Of a DNA stretch of 64,000 nucleotides, positions 4,679 through 52,545 are shown one piece after another. Below the pieces are notes generated by a model. The model was not told where the DNA came from. It searched no databases and saw only the letters and a list, made by a program, of their open reading frames with translations. Positions within the stretch are counted from its first letter, which is position 1. The number at the start of each line of letters is the position of its first letter. The DNA is from Dysgonomonas hofstadii (GTDB lineage Bacteria > Bacteroidota > Bacteroidia > Bacteroidales > Dysgonomonadaceae). The stretch spans positions 124,001-188,000 of the forward strand of contig NZ_JACIEP010000009.1 in assembly GCF_014196915.1 (NCBI RefSeq), in the 5' to 3' direction. Both the position numbers and the translations under genes were made by a program.

Positions 4679-6616
4679 TTAATAACCCAAATCACTGTTA
4701 GATAAAGCTCCCTGACTATTTGTTATAATAGTACGCGGTAGCGGACAAACCAATTGCTTATCTGGATTATTCAGATAAATACATGTAATATATACATCCC
4801 GTAACTCTCCGCTAGTAGAATTGGAATTTATCCATGGAGTAGCCTTCTCCAGTGGTTTCGCGTTACCACTAGGGTTCCAATGTATCCATCCGTTAGCAGC
4901 CATCCATGCATCAAGAGCATTTTGATCTATTATCAAATCGCCGGATGTACCGGGGGCTATCTCACCTCTGTTAAAACCATAGTAGACTATTTCGCGCTCA
5001 TCCGCAGCATTCGATTTATATTTCCAGAATACATAACCGGGAACATCGGCGTATGCTCCGCTAAATGAACGTAATGCACGCATATCATCCATCACCTTAT
5101 CCATATTTGTTTTCAACAGATTCCAGCGTACCAGATCATATTTACGAATAGTTTCTCCTACAAATTCCAACCGGCGTTCATTTTGTATCGCCTGCAAAAA
5201 TGCTCCTTTAGATGCACTTTGAGACTCGACATATGCCATTTGTGACACGCCCCCATAACCTCTAGTACGTACCCTGTTGAATGCTTCTTTTGCTCTGTTT
5301 GTGGGACCATCTAGCTGATTTTCAGCTTCGGCAAACATCAACAACACATCAGCATAGCGAATTATAATAGGCGTAATTCCATCATTTGTGTTTGTAGATA
5401 ACATCCCTTTACTCAAATCTATCCATTCTGCACGTAATTTACCCGGGGTCATACGCCTTACAGTTGCCAGCTCCTGTTTTCCGTTAGCCCAACGAAATGG
5501 AACAACTGATATATCGCGTCGTTTATCTTCCTTTTCATAATCGTAGAATAACGTAGGCACAGCACCATGAGTCCCTCCCTGATAAACAGAAGTATAGGGA
5601 TCACTACCCGATGCGGGACTACCACTTCCTCCTGCTCCGGCATGTATTACCCCAGCCGCAACCATCCAGTTGCCTCGTTTATTGTAATTGAAAGGCAGAT
5701 TGAATAAAGACTCACCACCAGCATCCAGTTTCACCTGGCAATTATCTTTAAATATCTTTTCAAATTCATTTTCCAACACAAATCCTTTCCCTTCATTCTG
5801 TATTATATCCCAGCACTCGTCGCGAGCGATAGTATATGTTTTTTCGATAGTAAGATCCGGATCATTACTTAATTGAGCTGTATTCATTTCTCCATAGACA
5901 TGATAGCCATAACCTCCTGCAAAGAGTGCGATCCTTGCTCTAAAGGCCTTTGCCGCAGCTTTGTTTGGTCTCAATATAGTCATAGTTTCGGCTGTAGTTC
6001 CAGCCCAAGGCATCAACTCAGCTGCTCGCTCCAAATCTTTCAACAACTGCTTAAATATCTCATCTCTGTCGGTACGGCCAATGTATAGATTATCCGAATT
6101 GAGAGGGATAAAACGGGCAGGTATATTGCCATACCAGTTCACAAGTTCGAAATAGAGCCATGCTCTCAGAAATAAGGCTTCACCCAACAAACAGCCTAAT
6201 TTGGTATCTGGCATCGGATTACCATACATTTCTAATCCTTCTATACATAAGTTGGCGCGTTCGATAGCCGAATATGCTCCCGACACAGCCGTTCCCATAA
6301 AATCATCCGACCCTTTATTATTATATACAGCAATAGTACGATGGGTATCGGTTTCGGTTAATCCACCATAAGAAGCAAGGTGCATTTCAGTATCGTTATT
6401 CAATCCCTTGTATGGCCATAGACGACCATTGAATGCGCTATAATTAATTTGTTCATATATTCCCATAACGGCAGATTCAGCTAACGTGGGATCGGCAAAT
6501 ATCACTTCCGATGTTAATGACGACTCGGCGTCTGCATCAAGGAAATCATCAATACATGACGATAATGAGATCAATGGAAGACTTATAATCAGTAAGTATA
6601 ATAATTTCTTTTTCAT
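4679..6616 (-). CDS. susD-like: SusD/RagB-family outer-membrane glycan-binding lipoprotein
   Basis: 645 residues with a lipoprotein signal (LISLPLISLSSCIDDFL, lipobox Cys about residue 21). Typical SusD landmarks are visible: the N-terminal DADAESSLTSEVIFADP segment, TPR-like helices with GCLLGEALFLRAWLYFELVN, the IIRYADVLLMFAEAENQL helix, and the C-terminal NERRLEFVGETIRKYDLVRW segment. SusD proteins cap the extracellular side of a SusC transporter and deliver oligosaccharides. It lies 13 bases downstream of the susC gene in the same operon. Ligand specificity cannot be read from sequence, but the neighbours point to pectic oligosaccharides. Confidence 0.96.
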   Translation of the reverse strand: MKKKLLYLLIISLPLISLSSCIDDFLDADAESSLTSEVIFADPTLAESAVMGIYEQINYSAFNGRLWPYKGLNNDTEMHLASYGGLTETDTHRTIAVYNNKGSDDFMGTAVSGAYSAIERANLCIEGLEMYGNPMPDTKLGCLLGEALFLRAWLYFELVNWYGNIPARFIPLNSDNLYIGRTDRDEIFKQLLKDLERAAELMPWAGTTAETMTILRPNKAAAKAFRARIALFAGGYGYHVYGEMNTAQLSNDPDLTIEKTYTIARDECWDIIQNEGKGFVLENEFEKIFKDNCQVKLDAGGESLFNLPFNYNKRGNWMVAAGVIHAGAGGSGSPASGSDPYTSVYQGGTHGAVPTLFYDYEKEDKRRDISVVPFRWANGKQELATVRRMTPGKLRAEWIDLSKGMLSTNTNDGITPIIIRYADVLLMFAEAENQLDGPTNRAKEAFNRVRTRGYGGVSQMAYVESQSASKGAFLQAIQNERRLEFVGETIRKYDLVRWNLLKTNMDKVMDDMRALRSFSGAYADVPGYVFWKYKSNAADEREIVYYGFNRGEIAPGTSGDLIIDQNALDAWMAANGWIHWNPSGNAKPLEKATPWINSNSTSGELRDVYITCIYLNNPDKQLVCPLPRTIITNSQGALSNSDLGY

Positions 6617-20444: not shown

Positions 20445-20640
20445 ATGAAAGCAAAAAAAAGCAAAGTTGTGCTCTACCTGAAAAAAGCAGTCAGTACAAG
20501 TCGGGTAAAGCTCTTATTATGGAAAGAATCGATATCGACCATTCCATGATGCACAGTTTAGTGGTAAGCTATCCTGTACATCTTGTTTGTGGAATCCACG
20601 AAAGAGTCGATTAAAGGACAAGTGCTGTGAAACGGTTCAA
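20445..20640 (+). pseudogene. relic of a tyrosine recombinase N-terminus (frameshifted)
   Basis: Reading from the ATG at 20445 gives MKAKKSKVVLYLKK, then the frame shifts to KSGKALIMERIDIDHS and again to LFVESTKESIKGQ. In order these resemble the start of Bacteroidota integrases: a VLFYLKK strand, a KDGKAPIMGRITID strand and the LWNPRESRLKGK segment. At least two frameshifts and a stop separate the pieces, and no catalytic domain follows before the intact recombinase begins at 20699. It is either a decayed tandem partner or an insertion scar. The match was made by eye without a database search. Confidence 0.6.
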
Positions 20641-20698
20641 CTATAAAAATATAACAGCAAAATTTGTAACAAATTCATCAACTAAAAATACAATAAAT

Positions 20699-21904
20699 AT
20701 GGTATCTATAAAAGTAAAATTCAGGATTTCCACAACCAAAGACTATGAAGGAGCACTATTCATACAGGTTATTTATAGACGTCAGGTACGCCAGATTAAA
20801 ACAAATTACAGAATCCATCTCCACGAATGGGACGAGAAGAATTGCCGAATCCGCATTGATCAAGCATCCGGAGAAAGAAAAGAATATCTGCAAGTGGTAG
20901 AAGTAGCCCTCATACAAATGACCGGCCAGATACATTCATCCGTCCACTATTTAAAAGACAAGGGATTGCCATACACAACCAATGATATTCTGCTGGCTTA
21001 TCATACCTATACGACCAGATGCCTTTTTTCTTTCATGCAACAGACAATTGAATATATCAGACAACTTGGAAAAACCCGTACATCGGAAACCTACACCTGT
21101 ACTCTGAATAGTTTTATGCGCTTTCGAAAAGACATGGATATATCTCTGGATGAGGTAGATTCGGATTTGATGCTGGCATATGAAGCCTGGTTAAAAGAAC
21201 AGGAGGTATCTATGAATACCGTATCCTTCTATATGCGCATACTCAGGGCGGTGTATAATCGTGGAGTAGAAAAAGGAATTACCCCACAACGACATCCTTT
21301 CAAACACGTCTATACGGGAATCGAAAAGACTATGAAACGGGCTGTTACACTCAAAACCATCAAACAAGTCAAACATGCGAACCTCCAGTTATTCCCTGCG
21401 CTGGACTATGCAAGGGACATGTTCATGCTGAGCTTCTATACTCGCGGAATGTCCTTTGTAGACATGGCATATTTGAAAAAAGCGAATTTAAACAACGGTA
21501 TTTTATCTTACCGCAGGACGAAGACAGGACAGCAGTTGTTCATTCGATGGGAACAATGTATGCAAGATATTGTTGACAAATATCCGTATATATCCACTTC
21601 TCCTTATTTACTTCCTATTATAAAGAAGTTCGGAGATAATCCGAGAAAGCAATACCGGAACGCCATACTGTCCGTCAACAAAAACCTAAAAAGTCTGTCC
21701 AAAATGATGGGGCTCTCCACCGTGCTTACAACCTATGTAGCGCGCCATTCCTGGGCAAGTATAGCCAAAAGTAAAAATATCCCCCTATCGGTAATCAGCG
21801 AGGGTATGGGTCATGATTCGGAAATGACAACACAAATTTATTTGGCTTCATTCGACACTGCTGTCGTAGATAAGGCAAACAGTCTGATTTTAAAAGGTTT
21901 GTAA
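20699..21904 (+). CDS. tyrosine site-specific recombinase, probable DNA invertase (Tsr type)
   Basis: 401 residues from 20699 (MVSIKVKFRISTTKDYEG); a longer in-frame start at 20627 exists but reads into the relic upstream. Domains: N-terminal arm-binding strand, SAM-like core-binding region (FMQQTIEYIRQL), then the catalytic domain with the first Arg in FYTRGMSFVDMAYL, Lys in YRRTKTGQQL, the Arg-His pair in YVARHSWASIA and HDSEMTTQIYLASF with the Tyr nucleophile. The family matches Bacteroides recombinases that integrate elements or flip promoters. The gene ends 26 bases before one arm of a perfect inverted repeat flanking 158 bases, which favours an invertase role. Confidence 0.92.
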   Translation: MVSIKVKFRISTTKDYEGALFIQVIYRRQVRQIKTNYRIHLHEWDEKNCRIRIDQASGERKEYLQVVEVALIQMTGQIHSSVHYLKDKGLPYTTNDILLAYHTYTTRCLFSFMQQTIEYIRQLGKTRTSETYTCTLNSFMRFRKDMDISLDEVDSDLMLAYEAWLKEQEVSMNTVSFYMRILRAVYNRGVEKGITPQRHPFKHVYTGIEKTMKRAVTLKTIKQVKHANLQLFPALDYARDMFMLSFYTRGMSFVDMAYLKKANLNNGILSYRRTKTGQQLFIRWEQCMQDIVDKYPYISTSPYLLPIIKKFGDNPRKQYRNAILSVNKNLKSLSKMMGLSTVLTTYVARHSWASIAKSKNIPLSVISEGMGHDSEMTTQIYLASFDTAVVDKANSLILKGL

Positions 21905-21930
21905 ATGGTAGAATTGTTTAGAAAAGAAGA

Positions 21931-21952
21931 ATCTCCTGTTAAGAGATATGCT
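21931..21952 (+). repeat. left arm of 22-bp inverted repeat (invertible segment)
   Basis: Perfect inverted match to 22111-22132 over 22 bases. It contains a recombinase core-like site: ATCTC (21931-21935), the seven-base CTGTTAA (21936-21942) and GAGAT (21943-21947). The spacer is the reverse complement of the one in the right arm, as expected for inversion sites. Confidence 0.85.
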
Positions 21953-22110
21953 CTGACGCACAAAATTAGGAAATAAATTGAAACTAAGGCATAAAAGACA
22001 CAAAAAAAACGCCCATCAAACTAATATTTGGAAGAATTGTATGCAAACTGTTTGAGAAAATGGGTCTCAAAACAAATTAAACATATAATAATCAATATTA
22101 TAATCACTAA
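21953..22110. promoter_or_regulatory. putative invertible promoter segment
   Basis: 158 bases between inverted repeats, AT-rich and without an ORF. An exact promoter core TAATTTTG lies on the minus strand at 21968-21961, so as assembled it points toward the recombinase; after inversion it would point out through the right repeat toward the surface-protein operon. No good -33 TTTG is found at the expected spacing. A second dyad, TTTGAGA (22051-22057) and TCTCAAA (22065-22071) around a seven-base spacer, lies inside. Promoter activity and flipping are inferred. Confidence 0.65.
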
Positions 22111-22140
22111 AGCATATCTCTTAACAGGAGATATGCTTTA
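22108..22140 (+). repeat. right inverted-repeat arm and recombinase core-type dyad
   Basis: The right arm (22111-22132) is embedded in a larger dyad: 13 bases at 22108-22120 pair with 22128-22140 around the seven-base spacer TTAACAG. Two 11-13 bp inverted binding arms around a 6-8 base overlap is the standard layout of a tyrosine-recombinase crossover site. It could also fold as an RNA hairpin in a read-through transcript. Confidence 0.75.
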
Positions 22141-22241
22141 AGTGGTATGTTTTGGGCATTGTAGAATTAAAATAGTTTTTACTATAATACATACAGTTAC
22201 ATTTTCATTGGATACCTTATTGGTTAATTTAAAGAATCAAT

Positions 22242-22415
22242 ATGAAAACAAACTTTAAACAAAAAAGGAACAGCAAGATAATGATTCCTTTCTATTTCGG
22301 ACATTTTCACAAATTACTATATATATTCCGCACAAAAGTTTCAATACCCCAACGGGGGAATTTTTGTTTGTCTTCAATGTTTGTCTTACCCCCTTTATTT
22401 CCGGCCATAGCTTGA
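22242..22415 (+). CDS. possible leader peptide upstream of surface-protein operon
   Basis: A 57-codon frame starting MKTNFKQKRNSKIMIPF and ending PPLFPAIA. Its N-terminus resembles the start of the next gene (MKKTNLKRKQILMPF), so it may be a duplicated signal-peptide start gone out of frame, or a leader peptide. It overlaps the terminator-like structure at 22347-22365. No family is recognised; coding status is uncertain. Confidence 0.25.
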   Translation: MKTNFKQKRNSKIMIPFYFGHFHKLLYIFRTKVSIPQRGNFCLSSMFVLPPLFPAIA

Positions 22416-22446
22416 GAAAGTATCCTCTGGGAAAGGGGTATTGAAA
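22339..22446 (+). promoter_or_regulatory. structured leader with competing hairpins (attenuator-like)
   Basis: CCCC (22347-22350) can pair with GGGG (22354-22357) over the loop AAC and is followed by TTTTT (22361-22365), a short terminator-like hairpin. The same CCCC belongs to TTTCAATACCCC (22339-22350), a perfect 12-base inverted match to GGGGTATTGAAA (22435-22446). The two pairings exclude each other. The alternative is a second, smaller invertible segment of 84 bases. Confidence 0.45.
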
Positions 22447-22522
22447 TTTATATGTGATCACAAAATATAATTGTATGGATAAGCCATTAATGAATGATTT
22501 TATAAACTAAACAGTAAACTAC

Positions 22523-23206
22523 ATGAAAAAAACTAACTTAAAACGAAAACAGATATTGATGCCATTCAAAGCAATATTGTTACTAGTTGCAATTTCGGGC
22601 ATAAGCCTGACTATGCATGCCCAAGTAACTATTGGTTCGGGAGAGTCTCCGCACAATGATGCGTTACTAGATTTAAAAGAGAACAATACAGGTATATCAA
22701 CCAAAGGTCTTTTACTACCCCGTGTGTCACTTGAAGCTACAACATCATTCTCTCCCTTATCGGCTCATATCGCCGGAATGGCAGTATACAATATTGCCAC
22801 GGCAGGTGATGTAACTCCCGGTTACTATTTCAATGATGGAACAAGATGGATAAGAAGTGGTGATAAAAATCAATTTTATATGCCTTCAATTATCCTGCCT
22901 ACAGATCCTTCGACACTGCCTAACAGTAATTATACATATAGTGGAACAACTTTTTCTGTAAATTTATATAACCTGTATAAAGAACAATACGAACTATCTT
23001 CTTCGGCTACATCACAGAAGAGTAGCGGAGCCCCGGCTCTGAAGGTCTTTGATGCTAATCAATTGTATTATTATATTACGTATTTCGATAATGCAGTTTT
23101 CTCAAATGTACAGATAAGTATAGCAGGAGTATTAACCTATCAGCTTGCTTCGGGATATACCATCTCCGAAAAAACTTTTATGAATATTTTATTCTGTGAA
23201 AAATAA
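22523..23206 (+). CDS. exported hypothetical surface protein
   Basis: 227 residues with a signal peptide (LLLVAISGISLTMHAQ). After cleavage comes VTIGSGESPHNDALLDLKEN and STKGLLLPRVSLEATTSF, a pattern common in Bacteroidota exported proteins of unknown function that are often annotated from phase-variable or type IX-linked loci; the segment IAGMAVYNIATAGDVTPGYY follows. No enzyme motif is seen. It is the first of three plus-strand exported-protein genes (34-base and 13-base gaps) downstream of the invertible segment, so it is probably expressed only in one orientation of the switch. Confidence 0.7.
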   Translation: MKKTNLKRKQILMPFKAILLLVAISGISLTMHAQVTIGSGESPHNDALLDLKENNTGISTKGLLLPRVSLEATTSFSPLSAHIAGMAVYNIATAGDVTPGYYFNDGTRWIRSGDKNQFYMPSIILPTDPSTLPNSNYTYSGTTFSVNLYNLYKEQYELSSSATSQKSSGAPALKVFDANQLYYYITYFDNAVFSNVQISIAGVLTYQLASGYTISEKTFMNILFCEK

Positions 23207-23239
23207 GAGTTGTACTACTAAAATCAAATATCTCAAAAG

Positions 23240-23743
23240 ATGAAGAAAAAAATCGTCATATTCATGATATATATGATCGCTTGTGTCAATGTTTTTTCCC
23301 AGAATTCGCAAAATATATTCGGAGAATACAAATTTTCACAGGTGGTGATAACAGCTAAGGACTTCCGTAGTAAGGCTCCGGTTTTCACAAAAGTTTTCAC
23401 AGACTCGGTCCAGATAATGACTCAAGACTGGGATTTTCCCTTGCAACCGGTGTTTTCCAAAGTCACCATAGCCAGTGGGAATATCGCTGAATTTACCTTA
23501 TTAAATAATGGGTATACCTATGTGATTAACAGGGAGAATTTGCTGGAGAAGAGAGATAAGAGGGATAATAGATCCGGGGATGAAAATGACGAATTCTCCA
23601 ACGACTATTATTTCCCCAGGTATACTATTCTGGAACAAGGGAATTCTATAACGATAGCTTTTGATAAAATCATTTACGGCTCTTCAAATTATCCTGACCA
23701 GACACTGGAAGGGGTATATGAAATGATACTGGTCAAACAATAA
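23240..23743 (+). CDS. exported hypothetical protein
   Basis: 167 residues with a signal peptide (IFMIYMIACVNVFSQ). The mature part is beta-rich (IFGEYKFSQVVITAKDF; NIAEFTLLNNGYTYVI) and contains a charged stretch (KRDKRDNRSGDENDE). The outline resembles lipocalin-like small exported proteins, but I do not recognise a family. It ends 13 bases before the large surface protein gene, so the two are probably co-translated. A role as chaperone or partner of the 1009-residue protein would be a guess. Confidence 0.65.
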   Translation: MKKKIVIFMIYMIACVNVFSQNSQNIFGEYKFSQVVITAKDFRSKAPVFTKVFTDSVQIMTQDWDFPLQPVFSKVTIASGNIAEFTLLNNGYTYVINRENLLEKRDKRDNRSGDENDEFSNDYYFPRYTILEQGNSITIAFDKIIYGSSNYPDQTLEGVYEMILVKQ

Positions 23744-23755
23744 AGAGAAAAACAA

Positions 23756-26700
23756 ATGAGGAAACTAATATATCCGATATTGTTTATAATATCGTTTTTT
23801 GGTGTGGTTCTGCAGGCTCAAACAACATGTGATAACTTTACGGTAAACACAGTTGTAACACCTTCTACCTGCCAGAGTAATGGTACGGTAACCGTAACGC
23901 TTACGGGAGCCGACGCCGCAGGACTTTTTAATGTCCAGTATTCGCTGGAATCGGCCGTTAGCGGAGGATTTTCCCTGCTACCTACAGCTAATAACGTATT
24001 GACCGGTATACCGGCTGGTACCTATACGGTTACGGTAAGTGCATTTTGCGATTCCCAGGGACAATACAGCGTGGTAAAAACCAAGACGAACGTAGTGGTA
24101 GGCGGTAGTTACCAGGTGCCTGAACTTTCATTTGTCGCACCGGGACGATCATCTACTGCCAGCACTGTGTCGCCGACCTCTCGTAAACCGTATGCGGGGT
24201 GTGCAACCGGACAAATTGTGATGTTGTTGAAGAATGGCAACCAAACAGCTACGCCTGTGTTTACCATGACTTCTGCCCCTGCGGGAGTAACTGTTCCACA
24301 AATAGTATCCGTTTCAAGATATTCGAGCGGATCTCTGTCAGCCGGTTATATATACACGCTCGACGGATTATACCCTTCTGGTGATTATACAGTAGAAATT
24401 AATGACGGTTGTTACGTCTCTTCTAAAAGTTTCACGCTCGAAGAATTGACCGATATGCCTATTCCGTACTCAACATCTTCTTATACGTCTCTGACTTATA
24501 ACCATATCCGTCCCTATTTGGGAGATAATCCAGGTTGTTCATTGATAAACTTATCTTTAACAGCGCCAACAACATCAAATGTCGATTTCTACCAGTATTA
24601 CAGGGACGGTTTATATGAAGTAGGTGCAGCTGCATTAAATCAGACTCCAACCAGCTGGACTACATGGGAATATGGAAATTCAACACCCACAGTAGACTTG
24701 GGTTCCAATCAGCTATCCGACTTTTACGGTTCTCCTAATAAAATGTCGATTTATTTCAGGGTTAAGAATTGTCCCTCTGTGCAAAGTAAGTATGATTTGT
24801 ATATAAGAAAACCCTATTATTTTACGACCGGGTATAGATATAACTGTGATAGCGTCAAAGCCATGATCAGGCCTTGGACCGATTATGACGGAGTTCTCTG
24901 CTATCCGATAACATTTAAAGTTGTAAAAACAGATACCAACGAAGTAATAAGAGAACAAACAAATATTACAAATCCCAACCAGATAGTAGACTCCCTTGCT
25001 TTTGCTTATAAAACCCGATATACTGTTTCTGTTATCAGTAATGGTGAAACAATATTTTCAGTTAACGAAAATCACACTCCTGATGTCTCTTATAGTTCAA
25101 CGAGCGACCACAAATATTGTGACACATGGGAAAATTACTATTCCAGATCCTATCTGAATTGCTATCCGGTATATGTCGATATAAAAGATTCCGGAGGAGT
25201 TACTGTTGCTTTAGACACTATATATTCATCGGCATCCGCCGATAGTTATTCACCCCCTCTCGAGTATGATAAGGCATATACATTCAATTTTACGTATAAT
25301 ATAATAATAAATGGAAATCCTTATACGAGCAGTTATACAAAAACTACGGCTAATGGAATGCCTAATGCCCTGACTCTGTCCATATATAATTCCTCTTCGT
25401 ATGAAGGATGTATTATAAATAATGGTTCGCTACGAATATATACAGGAACAACTTCCCGTGTATGGCCCGCTGGTACAGTGTTTACTATAACAGGGCCGGC
25501 CTCGTTCGGAACAAAAACATATACGGTGACTTCATCCAGTTACTATTATTATATATATAATCTTGTTATTCCTCCGGGAGATTATACCGTTACTGCGGAT
25601 TATGGTTGCGGTACGGTCTCATCAACAACTTATCTTCCGGGTGTATATGATGTGGAAGATTTTACATATACAACCGAGAACACCTGTTCGGGAATGAAAG
25701 TCACACCTTCTGCTACTCTGACTTACTATGGAAATACAGCAACAACTTACTTCCGGTTAACAAGCGGGCCAGCCGGTTACGATAGGAGTGTTATCAGCAG
25801 TGGTGGTAGTTTTACTTTTTCCGCCGCGGGTACTTATATCTTATCTGTAGTTACAACCAATGATGCCAACCGATGTGCCTTAGTAAGCGATACCATCGTC
25901 TATACCGCTCCGCCAATGGAATTGGATAATACCAGAACGTCAGCTTATGCCTGCGTCGGCAGTAGCGTGGGCAACATAGCGCTTCAAGCTATAAACGGGG
26001 TAGCACCATATACTTACGAATTGTGGGACGAAAATAATACAACCCAGTTGCAAGGCCCTCAGACATCTTCCGACCGGGTGGTATATACTTATGGTAATCC
26101 CGGCTCAACTTATACTGTGCGGATAGCTGACAATTGCGGAAATTCATTTACTCAGCAGGTGACTGTGGCCAACCTGGAAACTGCAAAGCTTGTATTTGCC
26201 GAATCTAACCCGGTTTGCTATGGTGAAGATATCAAGCTTAGATGCCTCACTTTAGGGATAACGGACTATGATTGGACATATCCTGACGGAACAACTCATC
26301 CTGGTCAGATCCAGGTGATCACAGGCGCTGACAGCTCAAAATCAGGTTGGTACAAAGTATCCGTTGAGGCTGAGTTTTGTGGGGCGCCGGTAGAAGACAG
26401 TATTTACATTTCGGTTTACAATCCTATTAATATAACTGATCCGGGGCTGGCAAATCAGACATTACAGATATGTCCAAGGGCAAGTTTGACTTTGGGAGAG
26501 ACCGTAACCGGCGGTAGTGGAAATTATACATATAAATGGCAATATAGTAGTAATGGCACGTCCTGGAGTACATCCTCTGCTACAACACCTACATTTAGTG
26601 TGACAGGACCAAATAACACAACCGCATCTTTCAGTTACCAATATATCAAAAGAACTGTAACGGATGCTGCTTGTGGTGAGTTTGTTGAGAACTATCAACT

Positions 26701-26785
26701 GAACGTCATCCCATGCTACATTCCAGTAAATCCCGATTTGATGAACTTGGGTACCGGGAATCCGATGAAAAAATCAAAAAAATAG
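23756..26785 (+). CDS. large exported surface protein with Ig/SprB-like repeats
   Basis: 1009 residues with a signal peptide (ILFIISFFGVVLQAQ). The body is Thr/Ser/Tyr-rich with repeated modules carrying a YTV-x-(I/V)-x-(D/A)-x-C type turn: PAGTYTVTVSAFC near residue 88, PSGDYTVEINDGC near 207, PPGDYTVTADYGC near 605 and GSTYTVRIADNCG near 782. Such repeats occur in SprB-like adhesins and other Bacteroidota surface proteins. There are many Cys residues, suggesting disulfides. No C-terminal type IX sorting domain is evident; the end is NPMKKSKK. Position after the recombinase and invertible segment suggests a phase-variable adhesin or surface-layer protein. Confidence 0.72.
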   Translation: MRKLIYPILFIISFFGVVLQAQTTCDNFTVNTVVTPSTCQSNGTVTVTLTGADAAGLFNVQYSLESAVSGGFSLLPTANNVLTGIPAGTYTVTVSAFCDSQGQYSVVKTKTNVVVGGSYQVPELSFVAPGRSSTASTVSPTSRKPYAGCATGQIVMLLKNGNQTATPVFTMTSAPAGVTVPQIVSVSRYSSGSLSAGYIYTLDGLYPSGDYTVEINDGCYVSSKSFTLEELTDMPIPYSTSSYTSLTYNHIRPYLGDNPGCSLINLSLTAPTTSNVDFYQYYRDGLYEVGAAALNQTPTSWTTWEYGNSTPTVDLGSNQLSDFYGSPNKMSIYFRVKNCPSVQSKYDLYIRKPYYFTTGYRYNCDSVKAMIRPWTDYDGVLCYPITFKVVKTDTNEVIREQTNITNPNQIVDSLAFAYKTRYTVSVISNGETIFSVNENHTPDVSYSSTSDHKYCDTWENYYSRSYLNCYPVYVDIKDSGGVTVALDTIYSSASADSYSPPLEYDKAYTFNFTYNIIINGNPYTSSYTKTTANGMPNALTLSIYNSSSYEGCIINNGSLRIYTGTTSRVWPAGTVFTITGPASFGTKTYTVTSSSYYYYIYNLVIPPGDYTVTADYGCGTVSSTTYLPGVYDVEDFTYTTENTCSGMKVTPSATLTYYGNTATTYFRLTSGPAGYDRSVISSGGSFTFSAAGTYILSVVTTNDANRCALVSDTIVYTAPPMELDNTRTSAYACVGSSVGNIALQAINGVAPYTYELWDENNTTQLQGPQTSSDRVVYTYGNPGSTYTVRIADNCGNSFTQQVTVANLETAKLVFAESNPVCYGEDIKLRCLTLGITDYDWTYPDGTTHPGQIQVITGADSSKSGWYKVSVEAEFCGAPVEDSIYISVYNPINITDPGLANQTLQICPRASLTLGETVTGGSGNYTYKWQYSSNGTSWSTSSATTPTFSVTGPNNTTASFSYQYIKRTVTDAACGEFVENYQLNVIPCYIPVNPDLMNLGTGNPMKKSKK

Positions 26786-27783: not shown

Positions 27784-29541
27784 ATGAAAAATAAATCCCA
27801 ACAAAAAAAAATAAAACAGGTTATAAAGCCTGCATATCTAAAAATTCGGCCTGAAAGAAGCCAAATTGAACTTTTTAAGGAAGAATTTATACAACTTCTG
27901 GACAGAATAAAGAATAATCCTAAAGAAACGGAGGAATTTCACAAAAACCTGATTATTGAATTTCTTAATGCCACCTATTATAGAAACAAGTTTTATATAA
28001 ATACTCTCGGGCATAACGATCTCGTTATCCATAATGGAGATAAATCCAGTTCGTCTGTAGGGGTTCTAATAGAAGTGAAAAGGCCATCCAATAAGGATGA
28101 AATGTTGAAAGAAGGAAATTTCAATGTTAAATCCTTTCAGGAGCTTATTCTTTACTATTTCAGAGAAAGAAAAACTAAAAAAAATTATGAACTACGTCAT
28201 CTCATAATTACGAATATAAACGAATGGTACATTTTTGATGCTCAGGATTTTGAAAGATTATTCTATAATAATACGAGACTTAGAAAAGATTTTGAAAAAT
28301 TTGAGGAAAAGATACTAACAGGAACATCTACTAATTTCTTTTATAATACTATTGCTCCACAATATATTAAAGAAGTAGAACATGAACTTTCATATACTTA
28401 TTTTGACATTAAGGATTATGAAAAAAATATTAGAAACGATAATAAAAAAGATGATAAAAAATTAATTACTCTATATAAATTTTTATCACCGACACATTTA
28501 TTGAAACTACCGTTCTCTAAAGATTATAATGAGCTAGATAAAGACTTTTATAATGAACTGCTTCATATTTTAGGTCTTGAAGAAACAAGCAAAGGTGCAC
28601 AAAAAATTATTGTTCGAAAAAGTAATAGGGATAATGGATCTTTAATCGAAAATACAATCTTTGAGCTCGAATCAAGGGGTATCTCCAAAGTTTCCAATAT
28701 TCAACAATACGGGACAAACAAAGATGAACAGTTATTTAATATTGCACTTGATTTATCTATTACATGGATAAACAGAATCTTATTTTTAAAATTGTTAGAA
28801 GCTCAAATCATTAACTATAAAAATGATAAGAACTATTCTTTTTTGAGCCTAGATAAAATAGATGGATATGATGATTTAAATAGTTTATTTTTTCATATTC
28901 TGGCAATAAAAGAAGAAAATAGAAGAGAGAGTTATATTACTGAAAAATTTGCACATGTACCTTATTTAAATAGTTCCTTGTTTGAGTATACAGAACTGGA
29001 ACTGAACACATTTACGATAAGTGCATTACCCGATAAAGCCAAAATAAAGTTATATACTCGCTCTATTCTAAAAAAGAAGAAAGACAAGAATGTAGAGGAT
29101 ACAACCTTATACCCTCTAAAATATCTTTTGAATTTCCTCGATGCTTATGATTTTAGTAGTGAAGGGGGCGAAGATATTCAAGAAGAAAACAGAGCCTTAA
29201 TCTCTGCATCAGTCTTAGGACTGATATTTGAGAAAATAAACGGCTACAAAGATGGTTCTTTCTTTACTCCGAGTTTTATTACCATGTACATGTGTAGGGA
29301 TACAATAACAAAAGCGGTATTACAGAAATTCAAAGACAGGAAAGGTTGGGATTGTAAAAATATTATAGAATTATATAATAAAATAGATAGTATCGAAGAG
29401 GCCAACGATATTGTGAATTCAATAACAATTTGTGATCCATCTGTAGGTTCAGGACATTTTTTAGTATCTAGCTTAAATGAGCTAATATATATTAAATCTG
29501 AATTAGGTCTGCAGAACTATTTATGGTCCATCCAAATATAG
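27784..29541 (+). pseudogene. type IIG restriction-modification enzyme, truncated after methyltransferase motif I
   Basis: 585 residues, about half of the usual length for single-chain restriction-methyltransferases of the Eco57I/BREX-like class. The N-terminal nuclease domain shows a PD-(D/E)xK pattern: Asp79 in GHNDLVIHNG and Glu97-x-Lys99 in GVLIEVKRPSN. A long helical middle region ends in GSFFTPSFITMYMCRD and methyltransferase motif I, DPSVGSGHFLVSSLNELI near residue 551. The frame then ends within about 20 residues (LQNYLWSIQI), so the catalytic NPPY motif and the target-recognition domain are missing. The following 200 bases are not coding, which suggests a deletion rather than a frameshift. 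Probably inactive as a methyltransferase. Confidence 0.85.
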
Positions 29542-49101: not shown

Positions 49102-50334
49102 TTATTGATTTACGGCAAATTTATCACTAAGTCCTTTTACTTTTGAAGCAAAATCATCCATGTCGTTACTTATCTTAGAATCTGTGATACGGGCATATAT
49201 TTGAGTTGTTCGAATATTAGTATGCCCCAGCATCTTACTTACACTCTCAATCGATACTCCCTTAGAAAGAGTCAAAGTGGCAAATGTGTGCCGGGCTAGG
49301 TGGAAGCTCAACTCCTTATCAATTCCACATAAAGAGCCAATTTCCTTCAAATATGCATTTACCTTTTGATTACTTGGAACCGGAAGTACACGATCATCAG
49401 ATAATGCTCCCTCATATTTATTCAGGATTTTTTGAGGAATATCAAGCAAAGGAATAGTAAAAGCCACCCCTGTCTTTTCTCTTTTACCTATTAACCATAA
49501 TTTGTCATCAAATGATATACGAATATTTTCTTTCCGCAGATTTTTTACATCAATGTAAGCCAACCCGCAAAAACATGAGAAAATAAAAATATCCCGAATC
49601 TGATCCAGGCGCTTTATCGTTATCTTCTTGTTGATGATAGACTCAATTTCTTTTTGTGTTAAATAACCCCGATCGACTTTCTTAATCCTGATCTTATAAT
49701 TTATAAACGGATCACTCTTTAACCAGCCATTATTCCTAGCTATAAGAACAATTCGTTTGAAAAACTGCATAAATTTGGCTGTTGTATTCGGATTACATCC
49801 AGCTGTGGTCAAGAGGTAAACCTCAAAATCAGTTATAAAAATAAAGTCGATTTCTTTTAAGGCAACATCCGAACGGTTGTATTTTTCTTTGATGAAAGAA
49901 GTCAGATGCTTTCTGGTAACTTCGTATTTTTGGTAAGTAGCCTTACTTTTATTTATGCCGATCAGTTTCTCAACATCTTCATTATGCTTCCTAAAAAGAT
50001 CAAGCAGCATCTGCTGTTGAATTTCAACACCAAAGAAGATATTCTTAATACGTTCAGGGGTAACAGAAACTTCTCTTTCGAGTAGTTCTCTGTAAATCTT
50101 AGTCATCGTTGCTTTGATACTATCAAGCACTGAGTTTGTGTTAATGACTTCCTGTGTTTTTCCGACAAGTTTACCTGCCGTTACATTCCATAATTTAGGA
50201 TCAACATCAACCTTTGTTCCAAACTGGATCGATTTTCCATTAACGGTAATTCGTCCCATAACCGGCATCTTGCCGTTTGCTTTTAATCCATTCTTTTTTC
50301 CATAAAAAAGGATACTGAATGTCGTCTTTTTCAT
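49102..50334 (-). CDS. int: island tyrosine integrase
   Basis: 410 residues with the Bacteroidota integrase arm domain (TTFSILFYGKKNGLKANGKM; PVMGRITVNGK), core-binding domain and catalytic domain: Arg region IFSCFCGLAYIDVKNLRKEN (the usual Arg is replaced or shifted in this motif), the LARHTFATLTLS Arg-His box and MLGHTNIRTTQIYARI with the Tyr nucleophile. It lies 270 bases from the tRNA-Ser gene and reads away from it, the normal position for an integrase using a tRNA 3' end. Repeats at 50433-50478 are its probable binding sites. Start fits the family N-terminus. Confidence 0.93.
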   Translation of the reverse strand: MKKTTFSILFYGKKNGLKANGKMPVMGRITVNGKSIQFGTKVDVDPKLWNVTAGKLVGKTQEVINTNSVLDSIKATMTKIYRELLEREVSVTPERIKNIFFGVEIQQQMLLDLFRKHNEDVEKLIGINKSKATYQKYEVTRKHLTSFIKEKYNRSDVALKEIDFIFITDFEVYLLTTAGCNPNTTAKFMQFFKRIVLIARNNGWLKSDPFINYKIRIKKVDRGYLTQKEIESIINKKITIKRLDQIRDIFIFSCFCGLAYIDVKNLRKENIRISFDDKLWLIGKREKTGVAFTIPLLDIPQKILNKYEGALSDDRVLPVPSNQKVNAYLKEIGSLCGIDKELSFHLARHTFATLTLSKGVSIESVSKMLGHTNIRTTQIYARITDSKISNDMDDFASKVKGLSDKFAVNQ

Positions 50335-52232: not shown

Positions 52233-52545
52233 ATTTTAACAAAAAAGTTACAAAGATTACACTTTTGCAGCATTTAGCTATTAGTTTATAGCTAATAGCT
52301 TTTTAACTAAAACCTGGCAAAACTTACACATCTTTTTTCTCCCTTCTTAATCAATTGCCTCCTGCTTTAGCTGGAGGATGAAAATAATAAAAGAAATGTC
52401 TTTTGTATTCCTCCAACTAAAGCAGGAGGCAATTGATATTTTAACTAAAACAGTACAAACCGTACACTTTTCCCACTATTTCAATAATCTCCCGTTCTTC
52501 CGGATTTGCAATCCGGAAGTTTTTAAGTGCGGATTTTAGATCCGC
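52233..52545. repeat. cluster of hairpins and short direct repeats (REP-like patch)
   Basis: Three similar units begin TTTTAACAAAA/TTTTAACTAAAA and end in an ACAC-T-rich stretch (from about 52235, 52301 and 52439). Among them lie AGCTATTAG/CTAATAGCT (52276-52284/52292-52300), a 28-base inverted repeat with one mismatch (52351-52378/52409-52436, 30-base loop), CTTCCGGATT/AATCCGGAAG (52497-52506/52510-52519) and GCGGAT/ATCCGC (52529-52534/52540-52545). No gene. It resembles REP-type or miniature-element sequence. Confidence 0.7.

Follow-up and report, generated by a model that had tools for sequence, protein, structure and literature searches.

A probable promoter inversion switch beside a tyrosine recombinase gene, with a predicted structured leader RNA, upstream of a surface-protein operon in Dysgonomonas hofstadii

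Several promoter inversion systems have been described for the gut Bacteroidales, where switches of this kind are well known; the sources are cited here from excerpts of their text. In Bacteroides thetaiotaomicron, expression of BT1927 and of the capsule loci CPS1, CPS3, CPS5 and CPS6 relies on inversion of a promoter near the gene of a tyrosine-type invertase or integrase, the target being a surface structure (PMC12118408, PMC12548429), and in rich medium about one cell in 1,000 expresses BT1927 (PMC12548429). The repeats of these five loci are quoted together with those of B. xylanisolvens and P. distasonis (PMC12118408), and we read them as GTTAC-N7-GTAAC or GCTAC-N7-GTAGC, that is, a 5-7-5 layout. 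In the BF2766/Tsr19 system of B. fragilis, a tyrosine recombinase gene stands beside an invertible promoter with a TAnnTTTG -7 box; the local promoter is mostly OFF in culture, and Tsr19 acts on an EPS operon nearby as well as on an outer-membrane cluster at a distance (PMC4747536). Surveys of the PhaseFinder type, whose inverton calls rest on reads in both orientations, have reported that tyrosine invertases near Bacteroidota invertons generally face such that the inverton promoter cannot drive them (PMC11892184). The inversion targets listed for Bacteroides comprise surface proteins, EPS loci, restriction systems and SusCD genes (review PMC12632263).

The switch described here probably belongs with the local-recombinase promoter invertons of the Bacteroides capsules and the BT1927 S-layer, and it has its own arm sequence and target. 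It lies in a stretch of 64,000 nucleotides (the window) of contig NZ_JACIEP010000009.1 of Dysgonomonas hofstadii, whose genome of 5.04 Mb is assembled in 44 contigs. A literature search found no paper on phase variation in Dysgonomonas or on invertible Dysgonomonas DNA with a recombinase, so that the locus would extend promoter inversion beside a tyrosine recombinase to this genus. The recombinase gene is followed by the switch, then by 390 bases and then by three genes for exported proteins (22523-26785). The features are:

20627-21904, plus strand: tyrosine recombinase gene, 425 aa from GTG, with Pfam domains
21931-21952, plus strand: putative left recombination site and repeat arm, core ATCTC-CTGTTAA-GAGAT at 21931-21947
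21953-22110, no strand assigned: inner segment, putatively invertible, 158 nt
21961-21968, minus strand: perfect -7 box of the putative promoter, TAATTTTG, facing the recombinase gene (OFF)
22111-22132, minus strand: putative right recombination site and repeat arm, core the reverse complement of the left core, at 22116-22132
22337-22448, plus strand: structured leader RNA (predicted fold), closing stem 22337-22350/22435-22448
22523-23206, plus strand: operon gene 1, exported protein of 227 aa with a QVTIGS...LLLPR N-terminal region
23240-23743, plus strand: operon gene 2, exported protein of 167 aa
23756-26785, plus strand: operon gene 3, exported protein of 1009 aa with a sub-threshold SprB-repeat match

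The layout of the window sites is that of the BT1927/CPS repeat CCGTTACCTAAGAAGTAAC, which reads as GTTAC-N7-GTAAC. Unlike those switches, the window has ATCTC/GAGAT arms, for which membership of the GTTAC-N7-GTAAC site class was rejected, another target operon and a structured leader RNA downstream, and it comes from the genus Dysgonomonas. The likeness to BF2766/Tsr19 is one of layout: a tyrosine recombinase beside a promoter with the same type of -7 box, OFF as assembled, whereas Tsr19 has a second, distant target and the window core has no other copy in its genome. As in the surveyed invertons, the neighbouring invertase gene faces such that the putative promoter cannot drive it, the inverton in the window being predicted from assembled sequence. 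An Mpi-type serine-invertase switch was also considered and rejected, since the gene alongside encodes a tyrosine recombinase and the repeat is unlike the ARACGTTCGTN type (PMC8375218).

The preliminary description of this stretch, made from the letters alone, had reported a perfect 22-bp inverted repeat that starts 26 bases past the recombinase stop, flanks an ORF-free segment and holds a seven-base spacer, CTGTTAA, between inverted GAGAT arms, and each of these particulars was borne out. The arms are complementary at 22 of 22 positions, with 158 nt between them; the recombinase ORF ends at 21904, no listed ORF of at least 80 aa lies inside 21905-22522, and the CTGTTAA spacer recurs in the sites of another member of the genus (G020, below). 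The repeat is not a product of chance: first-order Markov simulation of 21905-22522, repeated 1,000 times, yielded perfect inverted repeats of up to 16, against the 22 observed. In the whole genome, the 17-nt core occurs in just these two places with up to 2 mismatches allowed, and the window contains one other perfect pair of at least 18 nt at a spacing of 50-1000 nt, at 52350. The right site lies within a 13+7+13 perfect palindrome-with-spacer at 22108-22140. No exact copy of the 22-nt arm was found in the viral sequence collection. Since the spacer is asymmetric, recombination between the two oppositely oriented copies would flip the segment. A loose pattern, ATNTCN7GAGATAT, was discarded as a search tool, with 210 matches vs 99 for the reversed control in 25 genomes; these were mostly scattered single sites, and spacer pairing was therefore used as the criterion.

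The presence of a tyrosine recombinase adjoining the segment, another element of that description, is confirmed by Pfam matches above the cut-off, with 73.9 bits for Phage_int_SAM_5 (cut-off 22.3) and 34.1 bits for Phage_integrase (cut-off 27.1). Alignment with relatives suggests that the real start is the ATG at 20699. The aligned relatives are 55-59% identical, and R273, K299, R373, H396 and Y405, which we take to be the catalytic residues, are invariant in four of four. A PDB sequence search returned XerC/XerA-like chains, and NCBIfam gave just Xer- and integron-type models, far under their cut-offs.

Within the segment, a TAnnTTTG box of the Bacteroidota -7 type is present on the minus strand; by arithmetic, inversion would bring it to 22095-22102 on the plus strand. 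As assembled, no forward TAnnTTTG occurs within the 900 bases before the operon ATG. The significance of the box rests on its distance from the site across loci and not on the bare 8-mer, whose 5 occurrences in the window vs 9.8 expected are not significant. The -33 element of the window promoter shows no clear consensus, and a sigma-70 scan (6 promoter-like sites vs 3.6 expected) was left unused. It had been suggested that the assembly captures the OFF state, and this orientation is supported by comparison with two congeners, G020 and G014, in which the box faces the operon, while in the window it faces the recombinase. Given how few cells express BT1927 (about one in 1,000, as cited above), an OFF assembly is also what would be expected. 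Because the OFF promoter faces the recombinase gene, 57 bases from its end and with no terminator-like site between, antisense transcription into this gene would be expected.

A profile search of named genomes yielded 61 loci encoding relatives of the recombinase, 62 with the window, of which 11 have under 300 bases beyond the protein match. Two loci that carry several handles enter the count once each, namely L127 (also L004/L040) and L130 (also L006/L041). Defining a site pair as two downstream copies of TCTC-N7-GAGA with at most 3 arm mismatches in all and exactly matching spacers, we found such pairs in 34 of the 62 loci, and in 33 of the 50 whose flank is 300 bases or longer (L127 has a pair but 250 bases of flank, and so falls outside the 50). 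None was present in the 61 upstream regions, the 62 gene interiors or 40 Markov simulations. The 28 loci without a pair include the 11 with under 300 bases of flank and 17 with more. The first site starts 22-52 bases past the gene in 29 of the 34, this distance running from the end of the protein match, which in the window excludes the stop codon, and the inner segment measures 139-183 nt in 27. The spacers, matched within each locus, are of 31 different sequences among the 34. A TAnnTTTG box stands 11-16 nt inside one site in 23 of these loci (expected 0.41, maximum 3 in 500), pointing toward the recombinase in 17 (OFF, as in the window) and away from it in 6; an invertible promoter would be expected to give just this picture, a single box that keeps its distance from the site and is found at either end. 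The other 11 lack a perfect -7 box at the expected place. As read from these loci, the switch rule is one of near-constant arms, a locus-specific seven-base spacer and a promoter about 14 nt inside a site, and with it one assembly suffices to recognise such switches and to tell which way they stand at present. Nine of the 34 loci (L127, L136, L146, L150, L163, L168, L183, L186 and L187) hold more than one matching pair of sites, which may allow nested or alternative inversions. Among 20 Dysgonomonas recombinase loci, four, including the window, have TCTC-N7-GAGA, three have TCAC-N7-GTGA and 13 have neither, which suggests that the arms may change with the enzyme while the layout stays. An UpxY-like gene was identified by BLAST within 3.5 kb past the switch in 12 of the 34 loci, and we take the first genes at the other loci to include some for exported proteins and one whose product begins like a SusC-type receptor.

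The most direct comparison comes from the genus itself, in which a DNA search with the intergenic region gave piecewise matches in 7 of 25 genomes. In G020, whose operon is orthologous (first gene 55% identical, followed by products of 180 and 974 aa), the downstream flank and the segment match the window in opposite orientations, and the sites read ATATCTCCTGTTAAGAGATAT. Local alignment of the window segment with that of G020 scored 61 inverted and 16 not inverted (at most 30 in 500 shuffles), and with that of G014 it scored 52 inverted and 15 not inverted (no shuffle above 26). The downstream flanks of both genomes align in the forward direction (147 vs 28 in G020, 88 vs 25 in G014). Both orientations of the segment thus exist, between species. 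The G014 switch looks decayed and locked ON, since no perfect inverted repeat of at least 12 bp is left around its segment (L038, about 5486-5700) and the site remnants differ in spacer, CTGCTAA and CTGTTAA. Near the CTGTTAA switch of G020, no recombinase was found within the surrounding 15 kb among the matches listed, so adjacency may not always be needed. About 43 kb away, the recombinase gene that G020 carries at 97.6 kb is accompanied by a switch of its own, with the same arms and the spacer TTGCTAA, and then by an UpxY-like gene. This locus and that of D. mossii DSM 22836 (contig NZ_GL892009.1) resemble the window in having a recombinase 55-56% identical, the same arms and a site directly after the gene, and in D. 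mossii (L130) the -7 box also stands 14 nt inside the site; they differ from it in the spacer, TTGCTAA, and in the UpxY-like gene downstream, in place of which the window has a surface-protein operon.

It is therefore very probable, as far as the comparison of sequences can tell, that the locus is a phase-variation switch in which the adjacent recombinase inverts a promoter segment controlling the surface operon. The earlier proposal that the segment is invertible gains support from its opposite orientation in two relatives and from the geometry shared by 34 recombinase loci, and the placing of a surface operon downstream is likewise upheld by comparison with relatives. The enzyme would bind the ATCTC/GAGAT arms of both inverted sites and exchange strands at the edges of the asymmetric 7-bp spacer, turning round a segment that would carry a single promoter, its -7 box about 14 nt inside one site. 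After inversion, transcription would begin about the right site, leaving the right-site hairpin near the 5' end, and the ON transcript would comprise a leader of roughly 415 nt with a folded RNA element and then the three genes of the operon, so that expression would follow orientation. In recombinases of this class, the two spacers must match exactly for exchange. One enzyme could thus serve switches with the same arms and different spacers without cross-recombination, and in G020 a single enzyme would presumably serve both the TTGCTAA and the CTGTTAA switches. The rule thereby suggests how switches sharing an enzyme avoid recombining with one another.

It is improbable that the segment is inverted in trans by another recombinase of the genome, the adjacent gene having other targets. 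The genome does hold 31 recombinase matches at E <= 0.001, the CTGTTAA switch of G020 has none beside it among those listed, and Tsr19 flips a distant promoter besides its local one according to the excerpt of PMC4747536; but the sites lie directly downstream in the 33 of 50 related loci counted above vs none of 61 upstream, the regions around four other recombinases of the same genome have no comparable site pair, and the core has no third copy there. Quite improbable, too, is that the segment flipped in the past and is now locked in this strain: G014 indicates that locking happens, with decayed sites and a fixed-looking ON form, and the assembly offers a single orientation, yet the window repeat is perfect over its 22 bp, spacer included, and the recombinase frame is open with the conserved residues kept. 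That the repeat is a terminator, an operator or an RNA-processing hairpin is very improbable, for although the right site alone would fold as a strong hairpin (-22 kcal/mol, z -8.2), no terminator-like sites were found in 21880-22600, and a terminator or operator would not be expected to show a second copy across 158 nt that shares the asymmetric spacer, spacers that vary between loci yet match within each, or a segment inverted between species.

If the adjacent recombinase inverts the promoter as proposed, the ON transcript would carry the predicted leader RNA, which folds at -41.6 kcal/mol (z -3.5) in the window. The element is built of a closing stem whose sequence is free to vary, UUGUCUU motifs numbering one to four, and a hairpin tipped by GNGA; the window copy has UUGUCUU at 22368 and 22381 and the hairpin tip GCUUGAGAAAGU at 22410-22421. 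The element also precedes other genes (related copies in L188-L217 and L218-L249). The pattern TTTGTCTT-N5..34-GCTTGNGAAA gave 33 matches in 13 of 101 genomes of the family, with 4 in the reversed control. The regex set holds 34 distinct copies, of which 15 were aligned, so that covariation counts concern a chosen set. In those 15, the inner hairpin has 81.5% standard pairs vs 43-56% when slid, and 16 double-change cells vs 6.5 shuffled; the typed closing stems, partly unrelated in sequence and chosen for pairing, are fully paired in 11 and have one mismatch in 4. A fairer test of the stem is the shuffle comparison on all 34 copies. In 20 of them, none of 60 shuffles gave a closing stem as good as the best real one; in 10, between 1 and 7 of the 60 did; the other 4 (L124, L192, L199 and L200) have no such stem. 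With a covariance model, 15 of 25 Dysgonomonas genomes yielded 64 matches in all at E up to 0.01; of the 32 of these with loci, 2 had no ORF, and in 21 of the 30 others the next gene encodes a protein whose first 70 residues include a Q[VI]T[VIM]G-type motif, as is the case for 25 of the 34 regex-set copies.

The leader RNA looks new. No paper on a Dysgonomonas RNA motif was found in a literature search; the element has no match in Rfam, where a search of 21900-22530 with E up to 1 returned three sub-threshold hits, each of them to the minus strand, and one at the gathering threshold in six other loci with the element returned nothing. A model search of 295 genomes of the order, with stricter filters and two Dysgonomonas in the sample, matched the genome of D. 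hofstadii itself only. A side observation concerns G006, in which 9 of 14 regex-set copies have their own matched N7 site pair upstream (L191, L205, L207, L208, L210 and L212-L215). Five of these pairs share the spacer TTTATAA, with a -7 box 25 nt away in the OFF position, which would fit a set of several loci under a single enzyme. Among the 20 copies outside G006, those of the window and G020 alone have an upstream site pair.

The leader RNA may have a regulatory role. UpxY and UpxZ act on capsule transcripts, and they offer a model for a factor acting on the leader. A tentative extension of the inversion model, to which we give a rather low probability, is control by two gates, the invertible promoter and then the leader RNA with a trans factor, together with antisense feedback from the OFF promoter. 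Under this arrangement, the ON transcript would have to pass through the structured leader, which would mark a QVTIG-type surface-gene family across Dysgonomonas, with or without an upstream inverton; a shared trans-acting factor might read it and choose or limit the surface protein made, and antisense RNA to the recombinase, made from the promoter that in the OFF state faces its gene at 57 nt from the gene end, might tie the switching rate to orientation. The leader RNA could form a second level at which many surface genes are controlled, one open to test, and it is the fresher lead, the switch itself being expected by a specialist.

As to the operon products, genes 1 and 2 have no match in Pfam or NCBIfam; the SprB-repeat match of the 1009-aa protein reaches 25.8 bits (cut-off 28), and a PDB sequence search with this protein gave one weak match (E 0.043). 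Three further observations concern the rest of the window. A second tyrosine-recombinase-like match lies at 49168-49980 on the minus strand, 27% identical, and no perfect repeat of the switch kind occurs near it, just the hairpin at 52350-52437. This hairpin, of 29 bp, 97% complementary and with a 30-nt loop, is the sole other strong short-range inverted repeat of the window. Downstream of the operon, 27784-29541 encodes a 585-aa protein with DUF7149 and DUF7814 matches that ends shortly past a methylase-like stretch and may be a truncated restriction-modification protein.
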